DNA from: a virus
Strand: one strand, 5' to 3'
IMG/VR virus record: IMGVR_UViG_3300049846_001329
Location: 1 to 20,385 of that record
DNA: 20,385 nucleotides
Part shown: positions 1,020 through 19,333 of the stretch, piece after piece
How positions within the stretch are numbered: the first letter of the stretch is position 1
Layout of the letters: every line of letters begins with the position of its first letter
Position numbers and translations under genes: made by a program
Notes under the pieces: model-generated
The model's database searches: none
Told to the model about the DNA's origin: nothing
What the model saw: the letters and a program-made list of their open reading frames with translations, nothing else

Positions 1020-3010
1020 TGGGACTTACTATAATTCCTAACCAACCGGTAAATCTTCTACCAACTCCGGAAGATGCTTGTAATATAGGCGATAATAAAA
1101 AATATTGCACATTATATAATAACTCCGATGAGGCTTATTTACAATGGAAATCAGAGCCGTGCGGAAATGATTTAATGTGTGATCCTACATGGAGGGGTGG
1201 TATAAATTTAATAAGTAACGGAGCCTTCGATGAAGGTATAAGCGGGTGGACTGTTGATTCTACTTTTTCGTGGGACGGCGGCGGGCAAAAAATGCAATGC
1301 GGGGGCGGGGCTGCGTTTTGGTTTTTTCCATTGAACACGCTTTTAACATCTGTTAATTATAGTATTTCTTTTACAGTTTCTGGCAGAACGGCTGGTACTA
1401 TAAGATTTAGGCTTGGTGGTATAAATGGCACGGCCGGAACATTGCGATCAACCAATTCTACATTTACAGAAACAGTAACATTTAATTTAGCATCTACTCA
1501 ATATCAATTTTTAGAATTTGATTGTTCAAGTACATTCGATGGAAAGATTGACGACGTTATAATAGCCCCCGATAGCGGCTGTTCTGTTTTGGGGGCTGAT
1601 TGGGGTTATTCAAGTAGCGGCCTTGTGCATACTATTGGGAATACTGATCCTACATATATCTCAATATTATTGTCTGGATATACAGGATACCAGCAAATAA
1701 TAATCCATATAACAGGAATGACAACAGGGAGTTTGTATGCCGGCGATGGAGCTACAAAATTTGAATTATCAGATGGAACAACCGCTATGAATAAAAACGG
1801 TACATATACTTTTTATACTACTAAGGCGGCGGACTTCGATTTATATTTAACACCTACTGAGGATTTCGATGGAACAGTATCTGAAACTCACGTATATGAA
1901 TTAAGAAGAGATTATACAATAGCTGCGAACGATTCTTTTTCTGGTGTATTTTTATCTGATCTGACTTCCTATATTTCATACTATGAAGACAGGGCAATAT
2001 TAAAAATACCGGCAAATACTTTTGAAGATGAATGTATAAAATTATCTATTGTTGACCCTTGCGCGGACCTTTTCGGAGGTGTTACAAATGCCGAACTTGT
2101 AATTGATACCACATTTAGTACACCTGGAGTATGGACAAACTATACATTAGGGGCCTCTAATCTTGTAACAGGTGGTGAATATAAAATGACAACAATAAAT
2201 ACTCCGTCTAATAATCAAACATTTGTTTATTCAGATTTTGCCACTGGTATAACTCCAGGCTTTTATGTATTTAGGATTGAATTTAGTGTAACTGCATTTG
2301 AATCTGCTTCAAGTACGGCGTATATAGCAGTAGGATTTGGTGATAATTTGGGATACGGATTAGATCCTATTTATACACTAAACAACCCTCAGCCTAATAC
2401 TACCTATACGGTATTTGTGATAGGAGAGGTTTTAAATTATCATACAGGGGTTGAAATAATGATTAGTGCATTAAGCGACTCTACAAATAATCATCATAAT
2501 AACATTACTTCATTCTCATTAAAATATGCAGACGTAAACTCGGTAACAAGCATCTATGGTTATGAGTCTAATTGCCTTGCGTTTAAATCTTCGTGGGATT
2601 GCGCTAAACTTATAAAGGCTTACAAAGAATCAATAGGTCACTCTTACGGATTTTATTTCCCTGACGATTCGGGTACAATTTTTAAATTAACACAAAGAAA
2701 CAGGTTTATAAAATTCAACCCAACGTATAATATTGAATCAGAAGACGCAAGATATACGGACGGGTATCGAAAATACACATACGGTGAAAAGGAAAAATTT
2801 TATGACGCAAAGTTTGATTATTGCGATGAAACGGCTCACGATGCAATAAGCACAGAAATATTAATGGATAAATTTATAATTGACGGGGCGCAATATTTTG
2901 TAAAGCCAGAAGATTATAAACCGCTCTGGGATAAAGATGAAGGGCAAAATTTAGCGCAAGCGAGAATACAATTAAGAAAATCATTATCTACAACTTATAG
3001 CAACCGATGA
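1019..3010 (+). CDS. Large virion protein with carbohydrate-binding-like modules
   Basis: A 663-residue protein. Residues about 62-186 start with LISNGAFDEGISGWTV and continue with repeated beta-strand patterns ending in IDDVIIAPD; this is the usual look of a galactose-binding-like or CBM-type jelly roll. A second similar stretch begins near residue 355 (STPGVWTNYTLG). The C-terminal 150 residues are richer in charged and aromatic residues and contain paired Cys near residues 520-530. Start is fixed by the TAATG overlap with the previous gene; its own end overlaps the glycosyltransferase by ATGA. Both overlaps place it in a translationally coupled structural operon. A host-glycan-binding tail or fibre role is the likely reading, but no phage homologue can be named from sequence alone. 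Confidence 0.55.
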   Translation: MGLTIIPNQPVNLLPTPEDACNIGDNKKYCTLYNNSDEAYLQWKSEPCGNDLMCDPTWRGGINLISNGAFDEGISGWTVDSTFSWDGGGQKMQCGGGAAFWFFPLNTLLTSVNYSISFTVSGRTAGTIRFRLGGINGTAGTLRSTNSTFTETVTFNLASTQYQFLEFDCSSTFDGKIDDVIIAPDSGCSVLGADWGYSSSGLVHTIGNTDPTYISILLSGYTGYQQIIIHITGMTTGSLYAGDGATKFELSDGTTAMNKNGTYTFYTTKAADFDLYLTPTEDFDGTVSETHVYELRRDYTIAANDSFSGVFLSDLTSYISYYEDRAILKIPANTFEDECIKLSIVDPCADLFGGVTNAELVIDTTFSTPGVWTNYTLGASNLVTGGEYKMTTINTPSNNQTFVYSDFATGITPGFYVFRIEFSVTAFESASSTAYIAVGFGDNLGYGLDPIYTLNNPQPNTTYTVFVIGEVLNYHTGVEIMISALSDSTNNHHNNITSFSLKYADVNSVTSIYGYESNCLAFKSSWDCAKLIKAYKESIGHSYGFYFPDDSGTIFKLTQRNRFIKFNPTYNIESEDARYTDGYRKYTYGEKEKFYDAKFDYCDETAHDAISTEILMDKFIIDGAQYFVKPEDYKPLWDKDEGQNLAQARIQLRKSLSTTYSNR

Positions 3011-3870
3011 AAGTAGCTGACAAAGGAATATTATTAATAGCACTTAGCAACCCCTGGTATTCTAAGTGGGCTTATAATTTAGCTGTTGCAATAAAACTAA
3101 AAAGCCCATCATTACATATTGCTATTGTAAAAGATGAATCTTTTAATATCCTCGAAGAAGATGAGAGAAATATTTTTGATATAACAATAGACTGTAAAGA
3201 AGATTGGATAACCGGACCGCATGGCGTGGATTATTTAAAATGTAAGTTACATTTAGACGAAATAACCCCCTTTAAAAAAACATTATACATTGATGTAGAT
3301 ATGGTATTGACCATTGAAAAGAATATATCAGATATTTTCGATGAGCTTTCGGGTATTGAATTTACAATAGCTAATAGGGGGTTATGTACGGGCAATAGGC
3401 GTACTGAATGGATGGATTTGACAGAAGCTAAAAAATACGATGTAGATAATCTTTATGATATCTCATCGGAGTTTATTTATTTTGAAGAGGGATGTAGTGT
3501 ATTTAAAAAAGCCGTTGAAATATACAATGAGAACAGGGTAGTGGTCGATGACTTTGATAAAGCTAAGCCGGACGAACCATACCTTGCGTTATCAATGGGG
3601 GTTAATAATATTCACCCACATATAAGCCCGTATGCACCAACATATTGGCAGCTATTCTACGCTAATAAATTTCACGAAAGAGAATTTATATATAGTCATT
3701 ATGCTATGAGTTTTGGCGGGATAGGTATAAATAAGCCCGCATTAGATTTAATGACGGCATTAAATAATCACTTCTTTTACGCATCGGGGATGGACAAACA
3801 ACCCTATCCTATAATAAACAAAAAAGATATATTCAGAGCCTTTAAAGAAAACAGAAGGCAATTAAGATGA
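3007..3870 (+). CDS. Glycosyltransferase with GT-A-like fold
   Basis: A 287-residue protein. The N-terminus (ILLIALSNPWYSKWAYNLAVAIK) is a Rossmann-like opening, and residues 93-99 read LYIDVDM, where D96-x-D98 is the metal- and sugar-nucleotide-binding DxD motif of GT-A enzymes such as family GT8. It should transfer a sugar from a nucleotide donor; acceptor and sugar are unknown. There is no signal peptide or membrane segment, so it should act in the cytoplasm. It overlaps both neighbours by ATGA, lying between a surface protein and the portal gene, which suggests that it is expressed with virion genes and may glycosylate a virion protein or alter host surface glycan. That last part is inference. 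Confidence 0.7.
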   Translation: MKVADKGILLIALSNPWYSKWAYNLAVAIKLKSPSLHIAIVKDESFNILEEDERNIFDITIDCKEDWITGPHGVDYLKCKLHLDEITPFKKTLYIDVDMVLTIEKNISDIFDELSGIEFTIANRGLCTGNRRTEWMDLTEAKKYDVDNLYDISSEFIYFEEGCSVFKKAVEIYNENRVVVDDFDKAKPDEPYLALSMGVNNIHPHISPYAPTYWQLFYANKFHEREFIYSHYAMSFGGIGINKPALDLMTALNNHFFYASGMDKQPYPIINKKDIFRAFKENRRQLR

Positions 3871-5789
3871 AACCTACGGACTCAAAATTTAAACAATGGA
3901 TAAAAGGCACTATACGCCATCCATTTTACCAACCCTCAATAGATAAGTATGATGAAATGCTTGTTCATTACATCGGAAAATATCCTGCCAAACTTATAGA
4001 GGAAAGGCGGCCTTCGGAATCAGAAACCGTACAGAAGTATAGAAAAAAAGTTTATGAATGTAAAACACTTGGTTTTTTTGGGAAGGTGTTAAGTTCTTTG
4101 CAGAAAATAAGAAAAGCACATGACTATAATATAAAATTTAAAAAGATAGAAGGCGGCAAAATAAAAGAAGATGAAACATTAGAATATTATATTACAAAGA
4201 AGTTTCCTAAATTCTATTCATTTGATAATTGGTTCTGGTCAGTATGTTTTGGTAGTTACTGTTCGGATTCTAACGCCGTTAGTGTTATCTTTATTATGAA
4301 TCCCGAAAGGCAGGAAAATGAATATGCAAAGCCTTTCCCTATTATATTTAACTCCGATCAGATTTTAGATTATAAAAATGATGAATATTACTTTTTAAAA
4401 TCTACTGAGATAAGTTATTTTAGTGTTAATAATAGGACGTATGAGGGTGAAGTTTATTACTACATAGATAATGAATATTATTATAAGTACGAACAGGTAA
4501 GTAACAAGGGCGAGTTTTCAATAACTGAGCTTCCTCACAATCTTGGTTATTTGCCGGTGGTGAAATTACACGGCGTTATAGAAAAAGATATAATGGGGCA
4601 AACTCTTACAAGGTCAAGGCTTTCTCCATTAATACCAGAATTTAATGAAGCTGTCAGGGAGTATTCGGATTTACAGGCTGGTGTAATTCAATCTATGTTT
4701 CCGACTTATTGGTATTATTCTTCTATAAAATGCTCGACCTGTAATGGAGTAGGTTCGATACCTAACAAGTCTGGCGCGCCTGTTAAGTGTAAGACGTGCA
4801 GCGGTAAAGGCGATTTTCCTTTTAACCCATTCGAGCATATTTCAATGGCCGTCAAACAGACCTCGGTTGGTGAAAATCCAGCTCCAACTCCGCCAGGTGG
4901 GATTATAGAGAAGGATACTAATATAATTACGATACAAGATAAGAGGGTACAAGATCATATTTATAACGGGCTTGCTGCTTTAAACATGGAGCACCTGGCA
5001 CTTGTCCCTCTTTCAACATCAGGAACTTCAAAAGAGTGGGATCGGCAAGAGGCCAATAATTTTGTTTACTCAGTTGCAGAAGACGTGGTAAGGATATTAG
5101 ATGAACATATCGAGGTGTTTAATGATTTAAGGTTTTCAGTAATAATACCCGACAAAAATAAGAGAGATGATATGCTGCCTGAAATAAATACTCCGTATAA
5201 ATTCGATTTAACAAGTGACCAACAGATTGCAGAAGATATAGGAAAATTGAGACTGAATAAATTTAATCAAAGTATTATTACGGCCGCCGAAGTAGAATAT
5301 GTTAATAGAAAATTTGTTACCGATCCTGAGCTAAGAGATATTGTCAATGCAATGCACGAGCTTGACCCGCTATCTGGGAAATCAGAAGAAGATATAATTT
5401 TAGGTTTTAGTAACGGCGTTATATCTAAGATTAGTTATATTATTCATGCTAATATTAAGGGGCTTATTGAAACGGCAAAAGAGGAAAATAACAATTTTAT
5501 GAGTCTTAAATTAAATGAAAGGAAAGAAATTATTGAATCTCTTGCTGAAAACATTTTAAATCAAATGAGTTCAAGGGGTCAGGTTATGGATATGATAAGT
5601 CCGCCGGACGAATTAGAAAGCGAAAATAATATCGATTCAGACTCTGCTCAGGCCGCCGATAATTTAGGTAAGCTCCCTCTTGCAATTCAGCAATTAGCAT
5701 TAGCAGCTACAAGGGCCGAAGATTCCGGGAATATAAAATTAAAAAACCAGATTGAAGAAAAGATAAAAGAATTACTGACAACAATTTAA
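3867..5789 (+). CDS. Portal protein with DnaJ-like zinc-binding insert
   Basis: A 640-residue protein of the right size and place for a portal: directly upstream of a MuF-like minor head protein and then scaffold and capsid genes. A long middle region with aromatic strands (residues 115-235) is followed by a helical stretch (LSPLIPEFNEAVREYSDLQAG) and a long helical C-terminus, which suits the portal wing, stem and crown. Residues 289-315 carry two CxxCxGxG units, C289-C292 and C308-C311, separated by 15 residues. This is the DnaJ cysteine-rich pattern and predicts one tetrahedral zinc site. Portals form the dodecameric ring through which DNA enters and leaves. Start overlaps the glycosyltransferase stop by ATGA. 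Family assignment rests on context, size and composition rather than on a diagnostic motif. Confidence 0.7.
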   Translation: MKPTDSKFKQWIKGTIRHPFYQPSIDKYDEMLVHYIGKYPAKLIEERRPSESETVQKYRKKVYECKTLGFFGKVLSSLQKIRKAHDYNIKFKKIEGGKIKEDETLEYYITKKFPKFYSFDNWFWSVCFGSYCSDSNAVSVIFIMNPERQENEYAKPFPIIFNSDQILDYKNDEYYFLKSTEISYFSVNNRTYEGEVYYYIDNEYYYKYEQVSNKGEFSITELPHNLGYLPVVKLHGVIEKDIMGQTLTRSRLSPLIPEFNEAVREYSDLQAGVIQSMFPTYWYYSSIKCSTCNGVGSIPNKSGAPVKCKTCSGKGDFPFNPFEHISMAVKQTSVGENPAPTPPGGIIEKDTNIITIQDKRVQDHIYNGLAALNMEHLALVPLSTSGTSKEWDRQEANNFVYSVAEDVVRILDEHIEVFNDLRFSVIIPDKNKRDDMLPEINTPYKFDLTSDQQIAEDIGKLRLNKFNQSIITAAEVEYVNRKFVTDPELRDIVNAMHELDPLSGKSEEDIILGFSNGVISKISYIIHANIKGLIETAKEENNNFMSLKLNERKEIIESLAENILNQMSSRGQVMDMISPPDELESENNIDSDSAQAADNLGKLPLAIQQLALAATRAEDSGNIKLKNQIEEKIKELLTTI

Positions 5790-5792
5790 TAA

Positions 5793-6659
5793 ATGAAATT
5801 AGATAACATTCAAAATTCTTTAGATTTTATAAACTTATCTATTAACGACTTCTTAAGTGATATTCCGGAAATAGAAAAACAGACCTTTAATAAGTTATTA
5901 GAGATAACGAAAGATTTAGAAATTCAAAATGGTAAAATAAAAAACAATGTAAAAAATCTGAAACTAATTGGAGAGATAAAAAAAGAGCTGGACAAAATTA
6001 TACTATCTAAGCCATATTTAAAAAAGGTAGCAAAATTTACAAAGGCTTTCGATAAGGTTTCCGATCTACAAAAAGAATACTTCAGCTCGATTGGTGTAGA
6101 GTTTGGTACAATAAAAACCCTGGATGAATTAAAAAAAATAAACATTGATAATACAATAGAGCTACTAACAGAATCAGGTATTGATTATAATTATACAAGT
6201 AAAATAAGAAATATACTCCAAACAAATATAACATCAGGCGGTTCTTATTCTGATTTAATATCTCAATTAAAAGAAACAGAAGGGAAATTATTAAAATATG
6301 CATCCACAATAGCTACCACATCTTTAAACACTTATAGCAGGGCGTATAATCAGACAGTTGCAAGCGATCTTGGTTTTAAATGGTATATGTACGTAGGCAC
6401 AAATGTATTAAAGACTCGCCCATTTTGTAGGGCAATGACTGAAAAGAAATATTTTCATGAATCGGAAATACCGGATATAATAACAGGAAATATAGATGGG
6501 GAAATAATATCACTTGCAGGATTAAATGAAGCTACCACAATAGATAATTTTACCCAGCTTGCCGGCGGTTGGAATTGTGGGCATGGCATTTATCCTATTC
6601 CAGATGCCTTTGTGCCAAAGGAAATAAGAGATAAATTACATGACCTGGTTAATGAATGA
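5793..6659 (+). CDS. Minor head protein, phage Mu F / SPP1 gp7-like
   Basis: A 288-residue protein whose first 165 residues are mostly charged helices. The C-terminal 100 residues match the MuF pattern: a helix with TSLNTYSRAYNQTVA, then TRPFC (208-212), and finally GGWNCGHGIYPIP (258-270), equivalent to the tRp.C/H ... GWnCrC..p core of that family. MuF-type proteins are head-morphogenesis proteins encoded just after the portal and packaged in small numbers in the capsid, as is the case here. The gene starts three bases after the portal stop. Its 3' end faces a convergent small gene on the other strand, with a hairpin between them. Confidence 0.75.
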   Translation: MKLDNIQNSLDFINLSINDFLSDIPEIEKQTFNKLLEITKDLEIQNGKIKNNVKNLKLIGEIKKELDKIILSKPYLKKVAKFTKAFDKVSDLQKEYFSSIGVEFGTIKTLDELKKINIDNTIELLTESGIDYNYTSKIRNILQTNITSGGSYSDLISQLKETEGKLLKYASTIATTSLNTYSRAYNQTVASDLGFKWYMYVGTNVLKTRPFCRAMTEKKYFHESEIPDIITGNIDGEIISLAGLNEATTIDNFTQLAGGWNCGHGIYPIPDAFVPKEIRDKLHDLVNE

Positions 6660-8188: not shown

Positions 8189-9313
8189 ATGGCATCAGGT
8201 TATGCAGCCTATATAATTAACGATATTGTAAAGGCGACCGGCCCGAACGCTCAACCTAATTTCAAGGTAGATGCTCGCGGCCTTACTAAACTGCTCTATC
8301 AGGGCAATGGATCTAATCCGATAAGAAACACAATTGAAACCGGTGAAAAAAGAGAGATCAGATATTTCTACCGGCAGCGTGCTAATAAATCTCAGGTATT
8401 AACGTCTGCTTCGAATGACTCGCATCAATGCGACTATATTCAAACTCCGGCAAGGCTTGAAACTACATTAACTGCTACAAATACTGTTAAGATAGCATAC
8501 CACCTCCCTTATTCACTCATGACGAATTATGAGCACGAGGCGAATATGCCGGCTAAAATTGGCAGCTATGGTAGTGCAACTCAGGAATTGCTTGACCTTA
8601 TAAAAGGGGCGGCCAATGGTTTACTTGAGAAGATGAATGAAACTCTTTGGACTTCTATCACATGGGGTGTAAACTCAGTAGCTGGAAACAACTCCGCTAC
8701 TACTGTTGACTTTCCTCAAAATGCAGCCCTTCAAAAAGTTACTGCCGGTATGCCAAAGATTATTTCTGACTATAAAAGAAATGGCTTGTCAGGTATGCCC
8801 AATATCGTAACGGGTGCTGGAATTCCTTTTCAATGGTTGTCATTTAGCAATGCTATGGGTGCGGCCGCTGCAAACGGATTTGATAACAGGATAGCAACCG
8901 CATGGGGTGACTGGTTTTTAGATCAGGATGCTTCGAGTGCAGACGGCCTCTATACTTTTGAGCCTGGTTCAATCCAAATAGTTGAATATTTAGAAAACCT
9001 TTTCCGCCCTGGCAGACTTGGTGTTTCTGAATTTTTCACTATTGCGTTACCTACTGTTGACCCTTTAGGCAATTCAGTAGCTGTGCCGTTTGATTGTCAG
9101 ATACGAGAGGTCGATTGCCCGACTACTCTTTATGACTCATATTCCGGCAGCTCTGGTACATACGATCGCGGGCTTTCTTTGATTATGTGGAAAAACTTCG
9201 GATTGTTCCAGCTTCCCCCTAACTCATACAGAGGTGAAGATCAGCAATACGGAGTTAACGGATCAATGCGCTATACTATCACTAACGCTGCGGCTACGTT
9301 CCCAACCAGCTAA
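8189..9313 (+). CDS. Major capsid protein
   Basis: A 374-residue protein directly after the scaffold-like gene. It reads as a well-folded mixed protein with no membrane segment and no low-complexity region, and includes a long central helix (SATQELLDLIKGAANGLLEK), an Ala/Gly-rich segment (FSNAMGAAAANGFDNRIATA) and a C-terminal beta-rich domain (LSLIMWKNFGLFQLPPNSYR). Compared with its neighbours it uses more GC-ending codons, fitting high expression. Length and gene order fit an HK97-fold coat protein. Its stop overlaps the next start by TAATG. Identification rests on order and character, not on a signature motif. Confidence 0.7.
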   Translation: MASGYAAYIINDIVKATGPNAQPNFKVDARGLTKLLYQGNGSNPIRNTIETGEKREIRYFYRQRANKSQVLTSASNDSHQCDYIQTPARLETTLTATNTVKIAYHLPYSLMTNYEHEANMPAKIGSYGSATQELLDLIKGAANGLLEKMNETLWTSITWGVNSVAGNNSATTVDFPQNAALQKVTAGMPKIISDYKRNGLSGMPNIVTGAGIPFQWLSFSNAMGAAAANGFDNRIATAWGDWFLDQDASSADGLYTFEPGSIQIVEYLENLFRPGRLGVSEFFTIALPTVDPLGNSVAVPFDCQIREVDCPTTLYDSYSGSSGTYDRGLSLIMWKNFGLFQLPPNSYRGEDQQYGVNGSMRYTITNAAATFPTS

Positions 9314-13634: not shown

Positions 13635-14129
13635 ATGCTTATAACTCTAATGCGTCAAAAGTGGGATAATGTTAGTACACTTGGCCGGCTCTATTTTGAT
13701 AATGAGGATGTAATGTATTGCGACCATGAAGGGAAAATGTTACCAGCCTATTCCCTCGAAGATGTTGACCGTAATTTATATGATTACATGAAAGAAAGCG
13801 AAATATTATCGGTTAAGATTCCTGGTAAAACGGCAATTCCATACGGAAGATATAAGATTGAATTAACATATTCACCGAGGTTTAAAAAAATATTACCATT
13901 ATTAATTGCAGTAAAAGGATTTAGCGGGGTTAGGATTCACAATGGATCCTTTGCAAAAGATACGGACGGATGTATATTAGGTGGATTTAAATGGCATAAG
14001 TTATTTGAGAATGACGGAAGCAGTCAATTTATGATTTCAAAGTCGAAAGATTGGATGAGTGATTTTATGAATATGATTAATTATAGGGTAAGTAAGAAAG
14101 AAGAAATATTCATTGAGATAGTCAAATGA
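13635..14129 (+). CDS. DUF5675-family protein, likely peptidoglycan-related
   Basis: A 164-residue protein with the family's order of motifs: MLITLMRQKW ... STLGRLYFD, then YSLEDVDR, KIPGKTAIPYGRYKIELTYS (61-80), and IHNGSFAKDTDGCILGG (101-117). The last motif, with H102 and C113, recalls the active site of L,D-transpeptidases (H ... GC), so a wall-active enzyme is plausible; the activity of DUF5675 proteins is not something I can assert. It sits beside holin-like genes, which supports a part in lysis. It starts seven bases after the terminator stem and its end overlaps the next gene by ATGA. Confidence 0.6.
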   Translation: MLITLMRQKWDNVSTLGRLYFDNEDVMYCDHEGKMLPAYSLEDVDRNLYDYMKESEILSVKIPGKTAIPYGRYKIELTYSPRFKKILPLLIAVKGFSGVRIHNGSFAKDTDGCILGGFKWHKLFENDGSSQFMISKSKDWMSDFMNMINYRVSKKEEIFIEIVK

Positions 14130-14770: not shown

Positions 14771-15974
14771 TAAAAATCATTTCTTTAAACTTTTAGATGA
14801 ATATAATAAAAAGGGGTATTTACCTGACGGTAAAAAAATAGGAAGATCGAGGGTAAAAGATTATTTTAATCAAAATAATTATGAATTTTATGATCATTTA
14901 GGAAAAAGGGTAACTGATTTTACTAAATGGTATCAAAATTGGTATCATTCCAGGGCCGAGGTTAATATACCCCGCCTTGATAAAATAGTAAATGATCTTC
15001 ATTTGCACGAGAAGATAAAAAACAGGCTCAATAGAAGAAAAGAGGTTACCTCTATTGAGCAACTATCTAATGAGTTTGATGTAGGGGTTGGTAAAATAAA
15101 ACACGCCATTGAGCAGCTTCAGTCGCTTGGCCATACCGTAGAATTAAAAGGTGGGCAGGTTATGATAAATTCAGATATCCCAAAATCTGAAGAAACGAAA
15201 CTAAACATTTCGAAACTATCGACAGGGGTATATAAATTTGGTTTGCTTGGTGATAATCATTTATGTTCACGGTATGAAAGGCTCGATGTTCTTAATGCTT
15301 TATATGATTACTATAAAGAACAGGGTATAACTATTGTATATAATACCGGAAACTGGATTGATGGAGAGGCTAAATTTAATAAACACGACCTACATACTCA
15401 CGGCATGGATAATCAGATAAGATATTTTTTAGATACCTACCCTAAAAGAGATGGAATACAAACCAGGTATATAACCGGCGATGATCATGAGGGGTGGTAC
15501 ACTCAAAGAGAGGGTATAAACGTAGGCAAATATACCCAGATACTTTCTGAGGAACATGGAAGAAAAGATTTGTTTTTTTTAGGGCACATGGAGCATGACG
15601 AAATAATAAAAACAAAGAAGGGGCAAACCAGGGTAAGAATATTACACCCTGGCGGCGGTTCATCTTACGCAACATCTTACAGCGTACAAAAAATAGTTGA
15701 AAGTTATACAGGCGGTGATAAGCCAGATGTTTTGTTCGTAGGTCACTATCATAAATCTGAATATACTTATTATAGAGGCGTGCATATTGTTCAGTCTGGT
15801 ACAACCGAAGATCAAACACCCTTTATGAGAAAGAAGAAACTATCTGCTCATTTAGGCGGGTGGGTAATAGAATTTTCTAATGATGACAAGGGCGCAATTA
15901 CTAAATTCAAATGTGAGTTTATTCCTTTCTATGATAAAGAATATTATAAAACAGGTTGGGAGTATAAATGGTAA
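14763..15974 (+). CDS. HTH-metallophosphoesterase fusion
   Basis: A 403-residue protein. Residues 90-135 (SIEQLSNEFDVGVGKIKHAI, then QLQSLGHTVELKGGQV) look like a winged helix-turn-helix. From 157 the calcineurin-like phosphoesterase core follows: GDNH (163-166), GNWIDG (196-201), GDDHE (239-243), H295 in HPGGG, and GHYH (327-330). These match DxH, GDxxD, GNHD/E, H and GHxH, except that Asp and Asn have changed places between motifs II and III (N197, D241). It should bind two metals and cleave a phosphomonoester or phosphodiester; the substrate may be a nucleic acid given the HTH, which is inference. The N-terminal 60 residues are uncharacterised. Overlaps both neighbours. Confidence 0.7.
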   Translation: MNDKNHFFKLLDEYNKKGYLPDGKKIGRSRVKDYFNQNNYEFYDHLGKRVTDFTKWYQNWYHSRAEVNIPRLDKIVNDLHLHEKIKNRLNRRKEVTSIEQLSNEFDVGVGKIKHAIEQLQSLGHTVELKGGQVMINSDIPKSEETKLNISKLSTGVYKFGLLGDNHLCSRYERLDVLNALYDYYKEQGITIVYNTGNWIDGEAKFNKHDLHTHGMDNQIRYFLDTYPKRDGIQTRYITGDDHEGWYTQREGINVGKYTQILSEEHGRKDLFFLGHMEHDEIIKTKKGQTRVRILHPGGGSSYATSYSVQKIVESYTGGDKPDVLFVGHYHKSEYTYYRGVHIVQSGTTEDQTPFMRKKKLSAHLGGWVIEFSNDDKGAITKFKCEFIPFYDKEYYKTGWEYKW

Positions 15975-17155
15975 GTATGATTAATAAATATATTAAGTAT
16001 CTATACATGACAATAATTTCATGTATAGTTTATTCAAATATATATGCATCTCATATTGTCGGGGTAGAAGTTAATTACTCATGTTTGTATAGTGGGCCGT
16101 TCGGGGATAGCCTGAAAATTGAGCTTTTAGTTTACAGGGATTGCGCCGGTATATCTTTGCCTGCTTCATTACAGGTTACAACTCAAACAGGATTTATTCA
16201 AGGGTCAATTAATTTGCCGTTAATAGGATGTTATCCGATCCCATCAAATTGCGGCGGTGTTTCGACCTGTTACGGCGGTAATGATTACGGAGTTGAAAAA
16301 TGTATTTACTCAGGTAAATTATATTTTGAACATTCTACAAGTTGGGTTATAAGAGTTTATTTTTGTTGTAGAAATAGCTCTGTTACAACTGTTACCAATA
16401 ATGGCAACAATACTTTTTATATTGAAAACTATCTTAATAATCAAAATGGATGCAACAATAGTGCGCAGTTAATTAACGACCCAGTTAATATAGTATGCAT
16501 AGGTGTTCAGGATACGATCAATATAGGTGCTACTGATTTAGACGGGGATTCTTTAGTTTACCAATTAGTTAGACCTATGGTTTACCCTGGCAATTATGTT
16601 AGTTATTTGCCGCCGTATTCTTATAATAATTTTTTAAATGGAGGGGTTATATTACAAGGGTCTAATATTATTATTAACCCTCAATTCCAGGAAATATCTT
16701 TATATGCAGTAAAGATATTTGAGTATAGAAATGGAGTTTTAGTAGGCACTTCAATACATGACTTTCAAATATATGCAAGCCCTAATTGCAATTGTGTTAT
16801 GCTTCCGGTTACATGGGGATTTATAACCGCTGAAAAAGAATCTAATTGTAATGTAGTACACTTTGGTACATTTTCAGAAATTAACTCTCAATATTTTATA
16901 CTTGAGAAGTCATTCAATGGTTATGAGTTTATGCCGGTTAGTAAGATACTGGCCTGCGGAAATTGCGACTATAAAAACGAATACAATATGTTTGACTATT
17001 TACCAAATCCTGCCGGCCTAATTTATTATAGGATTAAGCAGGTTGATTATGATGGAAAATACTCTCTCTCAGATGTGGTTATAGTAGAAAATAATCCACC
17101 AAAATACAATTCGTTGTTTTTTAAATGGAATATTTTAGGACAGGAGCTAAAATAA
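15968..17155 (+). CDS. Secreted Bacteroidota-type surface protein with T9SS-like C-terminus (truncated)
   Basis: A 395-residue protein with a signal peptide (MINKYIKYLYMTIISCIVYS, cut probably after IYA at 27). The mature N-terminus SHIVGVEVNYSC and LLVYRDCAG (53-61) are typical of large secreted proteins of Bacteroidota, as is ATDLDGDSLVYQL (188-200). Residues about 285-375 form the Ig-like domain that usually precedes a type IX secretion sorting domain (YFILEKSFNGYEFMPVSK, then IYYRIKQVDYDGKYSLSDVV). The sorting domain itself is reduced to a stub ending WNILGQELK, so normal surface anchoring is doubtful. Many Cys suggest disulfides and an exported protein. It overlaps the upstream gene by seven bases; its 3' end overlaps the convergent helicase-methyltransferase by nine. 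Probably a host-derived accessory (moron) gene. Confidence 0.65.
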   Translation: MVSMINKYIKYLYMTIISCIVYSNIYASHIVGVEVNYSCLYSGPFGDSLKIELLVYRDCAGISLPASLQVTTQTGFIQGSINLPLIGCYPIPSNCGGVSTCYGGNDYGVEKCIYSGKLYFEHSTSWVIRVYFCCRNSSVTTVTNNGNNTFYIENYLNNQNGCNNSAQLINDPVNIVCIGVQDTINIGATDLDGDSLVYQLVRPMVYPGNYVSYLPPYSYNNFLNGGVILQGSNIIINPQFQEISLYAVKIFEYRNGVLVGTSIHDFQIYASPNCNCVMLPVTWGFITAEKESNCNVVHFGTFSEINSQYFILEKSFNGYEFMPVSKILACGNCDYKNEYNMFDYLPNPAGLIYYRIKQVDYDGKYSLSDVVIVENNPPKYNSLFFKWNILGQELK

Positions 17156-19333
17156 CTCCATTTGTTTTTTTTCTTCAATGGCTGTCATTATATTCTTTTT
17201 TGCTAAATCAAAATAAGACTCTTTTAATTCGAATCCAATTCCTTTGCGCCCCATCTTTACGGCCGAATATACTTCGCTACCAATTCCCATGAATGGGCTA
17301 AATACCACATCTCCCTTATTACTATAAAGATGAATAAGCCTTTCAATGGTATCTAATTGCAATGGACAAATATGCTTTTCATCATTTTCATCTCGCCCAT
17401 TTCTGAATCCTTGTAATGTATTCCCGTAATCAATATCCATCCATACGGGAGATGCATATTTCTGCCAAAGGTCAACGGGTAATTCCGTATTCTTTACAGG
17501 ATCATTACGAGTGCCGTCTTTTCTAAATATTAAAACATAGTCGGGTATTCCAACCCTGGACATGGTAGAATCTTTTTTAACTTGCTTATGAAGAAGCCCA
17601 AGGGCCTTAGTTCTTTGCATTTCAATAACAGGATCCTTCCATATTGTTATTCTGGATGCATAAATAAAGCCGCTATCTTCAAAACATTTTAGAATCATTC
17701 CCGAGAAATCCCTTAAGCCTATAAATCCTTCTTTACCCTTTTGTATTGGCAAATCCATACAGTGAACACATACATTGCGCCCTTGTTTCATTGCGCGGTG
17801 TAGTTCTTTTACAAGGAAAGAAAATTGAATCATAAATTCATTGTAGTCTTTTGAATTCCCCATATCTTCAACATGAGAAGAATAAGTATAAAGTTCAGCG
17901 AACGGAGGCGAAAAAATAGATAGCCCTATACTTTCGTCTTCTATTTCAGATATTAACTGAACACAATCGCCGCGCTTAATTTTATACCAATCATTTACTA
18001 TTTCGGTATTATCATAGTCTTTTGTTTTCATAATATTTCCTTTTAGTGTTTCGTTTACTGCGTGACTCATTTCGTCTTGCATGATATTAAATTGTTTTTG
18101 TTTATTCTCTATTGACTGCTTTACGTTAGCCATTGTATCGGTAGTAATTAAATAAATATTTACTTCGTTATTTTGGCCGAATCGGTATGACCTTCTAATT
18201 GCCTGGTATAATCCTTCAAATGAAAAATCTAAAGATGCAAAAATCTGATTGCGGCAATTCTGATAATTCATTCCAAAGGATGCGATCTTTGTTTTACTAA
18301 TAAGGATACGAAACTCATTATTTGCAAATCCTAATAAATGTTTTTCTTTCCATTCATTAGAATCTGCGCCCTTGACTTCAATTGATTCGGGTAAAAGTTT
18401 CTTTAATAGTTCACCCTCTTCATTTTGCTTAATCCAGATTATAAAGTTTTCATCGGGTCTGGAGTTTACTATTTCTACAACTTTATTTAATCGTAGTTCT
18501 TTTGTAATCCTTAACTCATGGTTAAAATTAGTAGCGGAAATAATTGCATCATTAAATAATTGACCATTATCTCTTTTGGGTGTTATTATTTTTTCTTCAA
18601 TCAGATTTAGAGAAGGCAAATCATACCCATCCATATGAAATCCTATATCTTCTGGCTTATTTAGCATGATTGACCATGACCCAACGAATCTATAAAATAA
18701 TTTTAATGCATGGCCTTTTATTCTCCATTTAGCTGTTTCGCCGCCATCATGAACAAAGTACATAGCAAGCATTTGATTACGGCTCATTACATCTAAAAAC
18801 TCAGAATGATTTCCTAATTCCATCGGATCGTTAGGGGATGGAGTCGCCGTGCATGCTAATTTATATGGAGTACGAGAGAATAGATCAAGTATCTTTTTCT
18901 TTGTTTCGCCCTCAAAGTTTTTTAAAATACTACTCTCATCTAACACTACACCAGAAAATAAAGAAGTATCTATATTATCAAGTTGTTCATAGTTTGAAAT
19001 CTGAATAGGCGATATCCCGTCATATTTTTTAACTACAATTCCAAACTTTTCACCCTCTCTTATTGTTTGGCCAGATACGGCCAGGGGTGCAAGTATTAAT
19101 ACGGGTTTCCCGGTGTGCTTATTTACTTGATTTGCCCATTCAATCTGCATCAATGTTTTACCCAGTCCGCAGTCTGCAAAGATCGCATACTTACCGGCTT
19201 TCAATGCCCGCTTAACTATGAATTTTTGAAAGTCAAACATCTTATTGTTAAGATCGGATTCGATAATATCAAATCCGCTTAATATATGGCTCTTTTGTTT
19301 GCTCTCTAAAAAAAAATTATATTCTTTATTCAT
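17147..19333 (-). CDS. SNF2-like helicase fused to N4/N6 DNA methyltransferase
   Basis: A 728-residue fusion. N-terminal half: superfamily 2 ATPase with Walker A ADCGLGKTL (53-61), DESS (132-135), CTATPSPND (161-169), and motif VI QAIRRSYRFGQ (377-387). C-terminal half: DNA methyltransferase with FSPPF (motif IV, 474-478) preceding FSPFMGIGSE (motif I, SAM binding, 678-687), so the permuted beta-type order; FSPPF does not decide between N4-cytosine and N6-adenine. No restriction endonuclease domain is seen. Known phage enzymes of this kind protect phage DNA or alter host restriction; the helicase may move the methylase along DNA. The start overlaps the preceding small gene's stop by ATGA. All key motifs look intact. 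Confidence 0.8.
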   Translation of the reverse strand: MNKEYNFFLESKQKSHILSGFDIIESDLNNKMFDFQKFIVKRALKAGKYAIFADCGLGKTLMQIEWANQVNKHTGKPVLILAPLAVSGQTIREGEKFGIVVKKYDGISPIQISNYEQLDNIDTSLFSGVVLDESSILKNFEGETKKKILDLFSRTPYKLACTATPSPNDPMELGNHSEFLDVMSRNQMLAMYFVHDGGETAKWRIKGHALKLFYRFVGSWSIMLNKPEDIGFHMDGYDLPSLNLIEEKIITPKRDNGQLFNDAIISATNFNHELRITKELRLNKVVEIVNSRPDENFIIWIKQNEEGELLKKLLPESIEVKGADSNEWKEKHLLGFANNEFRILISKTKIASFGMNYQNCRNQIFASLDFSFEGLYQAIRRSYRFGQNNEVNIYLITTDTMANVKQSIENKQKQFNIMQDEMSHAVNETLKGNIMKTKDYDNTEIVNDWYKIKRGDCVQLISEIEDESIGLSIFSPPFAELYTYSSHVEDMGNSKDYNEFMIQFSFLVKELHRAMKQGRNVCVHCMDLPIQKGKEGFIGLRDFSGMILKCFEDSGFIYASRITIWKDPVIEMQRTKALGLLHKQVKKDSTMSRVGIPDYVLIFRKDGTRNDPVKNTELPVDLWQKYASPVWMDIDYGNTLQGFRNGRDENDEKHICPLQLDTIERLIHLYSNKGDVVFSPFMGIGSEVYSAVKMGRKGIGFELKESYFDLAKKNIMTAIEEKKQMELF

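Follow-up and report, generated by a model that had tools for sequence, protein, structure and literature searches.

The question raised by this locus is whether an open reading frame (ORF) made of modules known from type IX secretion system (T9SS) surface proteins, but carried by a virus, encodes a working cargo of that system. The window, meaning the whole stretch of DNA that was analysed, comprises 20,385 bases and is an entire virus record of IMG/VR. An earlier note had presented the ORF as a phage-borne surface protein of the T9SS kind. The reading considered probable here is that it is an accessory gene that stems from a T9SS surface protein and whose product is exported by Sec but, with a clipped tail, probably stays in the periplasm and is not efficiently passed to the T9SS. 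The ORF and its parts are arranged in the following order.

15968..17155, + strand: whole ORF of 395 AA, a phage-borne protein of T9SS surface-protein modules (ORF list and homology)
15968..16048, + strand: signal peptide, AA 1-27, presumed cut NIYA|SHIVG (sequence, conserved cleavage site, hydrophobic stretch)
16049..16792, + strand: SHIVG module, AA 28-275, predicted to form two beta-sandwich domains and containing CCRN and DLDGDS motifs (homology, AlphaFold)
16793..17086, + strand: fibronectin-III-like (FN3) module, AA 276-373, of the type that precedes T9SS sorting domains in Bacteroidota (homology, FN3 fold on relative L006)
17087..17152, + strand: C-terminal tail, clipped (AA 374-395), of which the remainder is in register with strand one (NxLGQE) of a short tail (alignment, stop distance, L006 model)

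The ORF is a real, intact gene. It begins with ATG, has no internal stops in the listed translation, and its GC content of 0.327 and its codon usage match those of the record's other genes. An alternative ATG start is present at 15977. The start sits within the last codons of the upstream gene (7-nt overlap), and the stop falls in the 3' end of a convergent gene (9-nt overlap). These and other genes of the record provide the context.

3867..5789, + strand: portal protein (phrog_7376, E 7.1e-18), with prophage relatives in Bacteroidota
5793..6659, + strand: head morphogenesis protein (phrog_595, E 5.4e-9; relative in prophage L237, E 1e-38)
13635..14129, + strand: DUF5675 protein; the same gene follows the head and tail genes in prophage L237
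14763..15974, + strand: helix-turn-helix (HTH) and metallophosphoesterase-like protein, the upstream gene
17147..19333, - strand: SNF2-like helicase fused to an N6/N4 DNA methylase, the convergent gene

As judged from its portal and head genes and from its synteny with Bacteroidota prophages, the record is a phage, and its host group is most likely Bacteroidota. Relatives of the portal were found in 4 of 395 Bacteroidia genomes, and the L237 prophage keeps the order portal, head gene, gene 8 and DUF5675 seen in the window. After DUF5675 it carries different genes and, as seen by eye, an integrase-like gene, which fits a site for accessory genes. In the window, the ORF is positioned after the DUF5675 gene and holin-like genes, and the helicase-methylase that follows is of the phage type according to PHROG. 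The earlier claim that the gene is phage-borne is thus borne out by the upstream overlap, the shared GC content and codon usage, the portal and head genes and the prophage synteny. Misassembly with bacterial DNA, which the earlier note had named as the finding that would overturn it, was rejected because of this overlap, the phage-like codon usage and the presence of phage genes on both sides.

A close relative of the phage was not found, and the clipping described below is known from this one record. Neither pattern scans with the portal and the phosphoesterase nor tblastn searches of 50,697 phage records with the portal and with the protein in capsid position (8189-9313) gave a match. The sole relative of the upstream HTH and metallophosphoesterase-like protein in these records belongs to a haloarchaeal tailed virus (26% identity, E 2e-23). 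Two further observations concern the first part of the record. The portal has a CxxCxGxG zinc-like insert at AA ~285-317 that resembles the DnaJ central domain (Pfam E 0.0012, below the cut-off), and a protein of glycosyltransferase-like appearance, by eye, is encoded at 3007-3870, where two putative tail genes precede it and the portal gene follows.

The N-terminal half of the protein resembles host surface proteins. Single-protein pattern scans with the target as query found no viral or genome relatives; this is attributed to the limits of the pattern method, as alignment-based searches later found some. With these, 10 of the 12 Bacteroidota genomes compared gave matches to the SHIVG module, as many as 20 in a single genome, with a best E-value of 3.8e-38 and 39% identity to host surface proteins. 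The SHIVGVEVNYSC and YRDC motifs named in the earlier note were both found and lie within this module of about 250 AA. Its pattern is 'SHIVG...YRDC...CCRN...DxDGDS', and the alignment of target and homologues has the A|SH start, YRDC, CCRN, DxDGDSL and EYRNG in common, so that the target carries the motifs of the SHIVG-module surface proteins of Bacteroidota. The signal peptide was also correctly recognised in the earlier note: the N-terminus shows a basic n-region and a hydrophobic segment, and its presumed cut, NIYA|SHIVG, aligns with A|SH or A|TH of the host homologues. By inspection and by this conserved site, the protein has the Sec signal peptide of a T9SS type A substrate.

The host relatives of the SHIVG module are long exported proteins, and one on a Hymenobacter plasmid is annotated with a gliding-motility-associated (type B) C-terminal domain. 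The same N-terminal module occurs in the type B protein P0001 on L004. Among other viral contigs, the module was found in two, L224 and L225, the former from a 476 kb record with a terminase. Their proteins share the N-terminal module with the target but have about 1000 AA and, by inspection, tails resembling the type B domain, whereas the target continues with the FN3 module and a clipped short tail. L225 also encodes a second exported protein (1797-2858) with a C-terminus that looks type A-like by eye. An AlphaFold model of the module built from 12 sequences (pLDDT 85.6, pTM 0.85) predicts two beta-sandwiches, the second of which is nearest to the cadherin-like part of the SraP adhesin and to cadherins. 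The Ig/cadherin-like sandwich is a common fold. The fold matches were rejected as a clue to function, as Foldseek and VIA-align gave generic Ig/cadherin matches with a best Z of 6.4, and the predicted likeness to SraP and cadherins says nothing on function.

The second module was described in the earlier note as the Ig-like domain that normally precedes a T9SS sorting signal, and AA ~276-373 do match an Ig/FN3-like domain found in this position in bacterial T9SS proteins. Judged by sequence comparison, the matches of both modules are far beyond chance. Plasmid matches to the FN3 module come from Hymenobacter, Flammeovirga, Aureispira and Bernardetia, and most bear the annotation 'T9SS type A sorting domain-containing'. 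Genome searches confirmed 540 stretches; of the best 80, those whose titles name an organism come from Bacteroidota. The module is also carried by 145 IMG/VR viral contigs, and at least 13 of 50 sampled records of these contigs have a strong terminase match. The FN3 fold is a generic one, and in the model of the phage relative L006 it is similar to a domain from the tail tip of phage T1 (Z 10.8).

In most of the phage protein clusters compared for this module, the chain ends in a short tail of about 35 AA with the pattern NxxGQEV...G..I..Y.DGS..K, always at the extreme C-terminus. It was found at the end of 34 of 48 phage clusters (67 phage ORFs clustered at 80% identity); examples among L006-L085 are L006:4732-5142 and L072:8001-8357. 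On the bacterial side, 2 of about 79 best hits (L125 and L165) end in the short tail and nearly all others in a full type A-like domain. A Fisher test of this difference gives p ~3e-17, with an effect size that is no more than indicative because one phage-weighted query was used to rank both sets by similarity. The profile of the short tail was found in 15 of 198 Bacteroidia genomes, where it often ends proteins with signal-peptide-like starts, sometimes without the FN3 module.

Pfam and NCBIfam gave no T9SS match for the short tails that were sampled. In the L006 model, the complete tail is predicted as three strands with a pLDDT of ~90; no structure of a T9SS C-terminal domain is among the matches listed for the short-tail model, which excludes nothing since the VIA rows cover residues 1-100 only. 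The occurrence of the T9SS sortase PorU in 15 of the 15 genomes with the short tail was dropped as evidence: it is uninformative because nearly all genomes of the class carry PorU (184 of 198). From its position, its neighbours and its phylum, the tail is taken to be a putative T9SS signal.

The target deviates from its phage relatives at this point. Its chain ends in 'NNPPKYNSLFFKWNILGQELK'; in alignment A8 the residues WNILGQELK are in register with strand one of the short tail, and then the chain stops. One strand of three is present, and the other two (kG..I..Y.DGS..K) are missing. The six residues NILGQE do not score significantly against the short-tail profile by themselves; it is their register and position that make the case. 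The distance from the YYR motif to the stop is 43 residues, compared to 60-112 in 65 phage relatives. Loss of the tail by a frameshift was rejected, as no other + frame downstream encodes its continuation. The phage proteins with FN3 module and short tail (e.g. L006, L008, L072) share with the target the module and the first strand in register, but have other N-terminal passengers and a complete tail. The target, which has the FN3 module and only the first strand, therefore falls outside this group of exported proteins.

None of the established sorting domains takes the place of the tail, and no Pfam, NCBIfam or PHROG model matches the C-terminus. The type A sorting domain (PF18962/TIGR04183, motifs A-E) is absent, with no Pfam or NCBIfam match on the protein and no Pfam match on its last 120 AA. 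The type B domain of ~100 AA (PF13585/TIGR04131) has no match in Pfam or NCBIfam, and the type C domain (NF033708, ChiA) has none either. The target resembles the type A and type B surface proteins of Bacteroidota in its signal peptide; it shares with type B proteins the N-terminal module alone, and its FN3 module is of the kind usually found before type A domains. Unlike these proteins, it is phage-encoded, combines two modules in one short protein and has neither domain. Transport of T9SS substrates across the outer membrane requires both a Sec signal and a C-terminal domain (PMC12618676, PMC10202324). Given this need and the clipped tail, export of the target across the outer membrane is doubtful and, on the sequence, probably impaired.

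Taken as a phage accessory gene of the moron type that lies at the distal end of the late genes, the ORF would encode a protein that is exported by Sec and descends from a T9SS surface protein of Bacteroidota. Cleavage of the signal peptide would release a mature protein of two cadherin/Ig-like sandwiches and one FN3 domain into the periplasm of the infected cell. Its ancestor presumably bore the short three-strand sorting tail, and the coding sequence may have been cut where the convergent helicase-methylase gene ends, so that the first strand alone was kept. With the tail cut short, the protein most likely reaches the periplasm and would be poorly handed over to the T9SS, unless the stub suffices. 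Any effect of benefit to the phage, such as altered adhesion, receptor masking or phage exclusion, would then be exerted at the envelope of the infected cell or lysogen and not by the virion; receptor masking or phage exclusion by this protein is conjecture.

The rival reading closest to the earlier note is that the protein is working T9SS cargo, displayed on or released from the host surface and altering adhesion or receptors. The remaining stub might suffice for the T9SS together with the FN3 module; both modules derive from T9SS cargo, the phage relatives have full tails, and phage T9SS cargo has precedents (Cryophage, PMC7468147; BACON contigs, PMC6949934). Nevertheless, surface display is unlikely. 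There is no complete sorting domain, and all 65 measured phage relatives have at least 17 more residues after YYR than the target. In addition, motifs D and E of the type A domain, which contact PorM and PorV, are at its C-terminal end (PMC10202324).

A somewhat less likely explanation is that recombination bringing in the helicase-methylase removed the sorting tail and left a decaying, functionless remnant. The coincidence of the clipped end with the 3' end of the convergent gene fits this, as does the occurrence of both T9SS cargo genes and DNA methylases in Cryophage metagenomic islands (PMC7468147). However, the frame of 395 AA is intact and its start overlaps the upstream gene, and the codon usage and the conserved Cys, CCRN and DxDGD motifs are retained. 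It is improbable that the protein is part of the virion, e.g. a tail-tip or fibre decoration. Virions often contain Ig and FN3 domains, the gene belongs to the late cluster, and the likeness of the L006 FN3 model to the T1 tail tip points in the same direction, but this fold is generic. Moreover, the signal peptide has a conserved cleavage site, no PHROG structural family matches at E <= 1, and the gene lies beyond the lysis-like genes and not among the tail genes. An envelope lipoprotein anchored via Cys19, for which the T9SS tail would be unneeded and its loss harmless, is very improbable: the weak lipobox-like IISC ending at AA 19 fits the lipobox pattern (IIS|C) on inspection, but just ~8 hydrophobic residues precede the Cys, the residues following it are hydrophobic, and cleavage in this family is at A|SHIVG.

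The favoured reading, a Sec-exported accessory protein that is probably periplasmic, has to be seen against what is already known of phage-encoded T9SS cargo. The statement in the earlier note that such cargo is rarely discussed is fair, but as a general idea it has been reported. Three variable genes of Cryophage, a 76-kb Bacteroidetes phage, carry type A sorting domains, and the authors suggested that the phage hijacks the T9SS of its host and, possibly, excludes superinfecting phages (PMC7468147). Proteins with T9SS sorting domains have likewise been noted in BACON contigs of the crAss-like kind (PMC6949934). The target is a variant of this theme. Cryophage resembles the phage of the window as a Bacteroidetes phage with accessory genes for T9SS-type exported proteins alongside variable DNA methylases (PMC7468147). 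Its cargo, however, consists of enzymes and a PA14 protein with type A sorting domains, whereas the target combines the SHIVG and FN3 modules in a Bacteroidota phage genome without a complete, recognised sorting domain.

New here are the scale on which viral contigs carry the FN3 module and the short tail for which Pfam and NCBIfam have no model; this wider set of phage proteins is a more interesting outcome than the target alone. In the literature compared, no description of the short tail was met, and it may still have been described. We tentatively propose, while rating it as somewhat short of probable, that the three-strand tail is an undescribed class of T9SS sorting signal, widely used by Bacteroidota phages for variable exported proteins, with the phage of the window as a natural truncation. 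If phages routinely place exported proteins in Bacteroidota envelopes, infected cells may differ from uninfected ones in adhesion, gliding or susceptibility to phages, and the large number of cargo variants would provide surface changes that can be tested. A tail this compact would also be a simple probe of T9SS substrate recognition, an open question of the field (PMC10202324), for which the clipped tail of the window is a ready-made truncation control.

Two observations were made on other viral contigs. At L068:1455-8372, five ORFs with signal-peptide-like starts, at least one of them with the short tail, lie in a row as a tandem array of exported proteins. In the records of L027 (G224:C1:45246-47021) and L034 (G229:C1:9187-10962), the terminase matches cross 7-8 TGA and 3-4 TAG codons, for which an insertion, an intron, a frameshift or an altered code could account.
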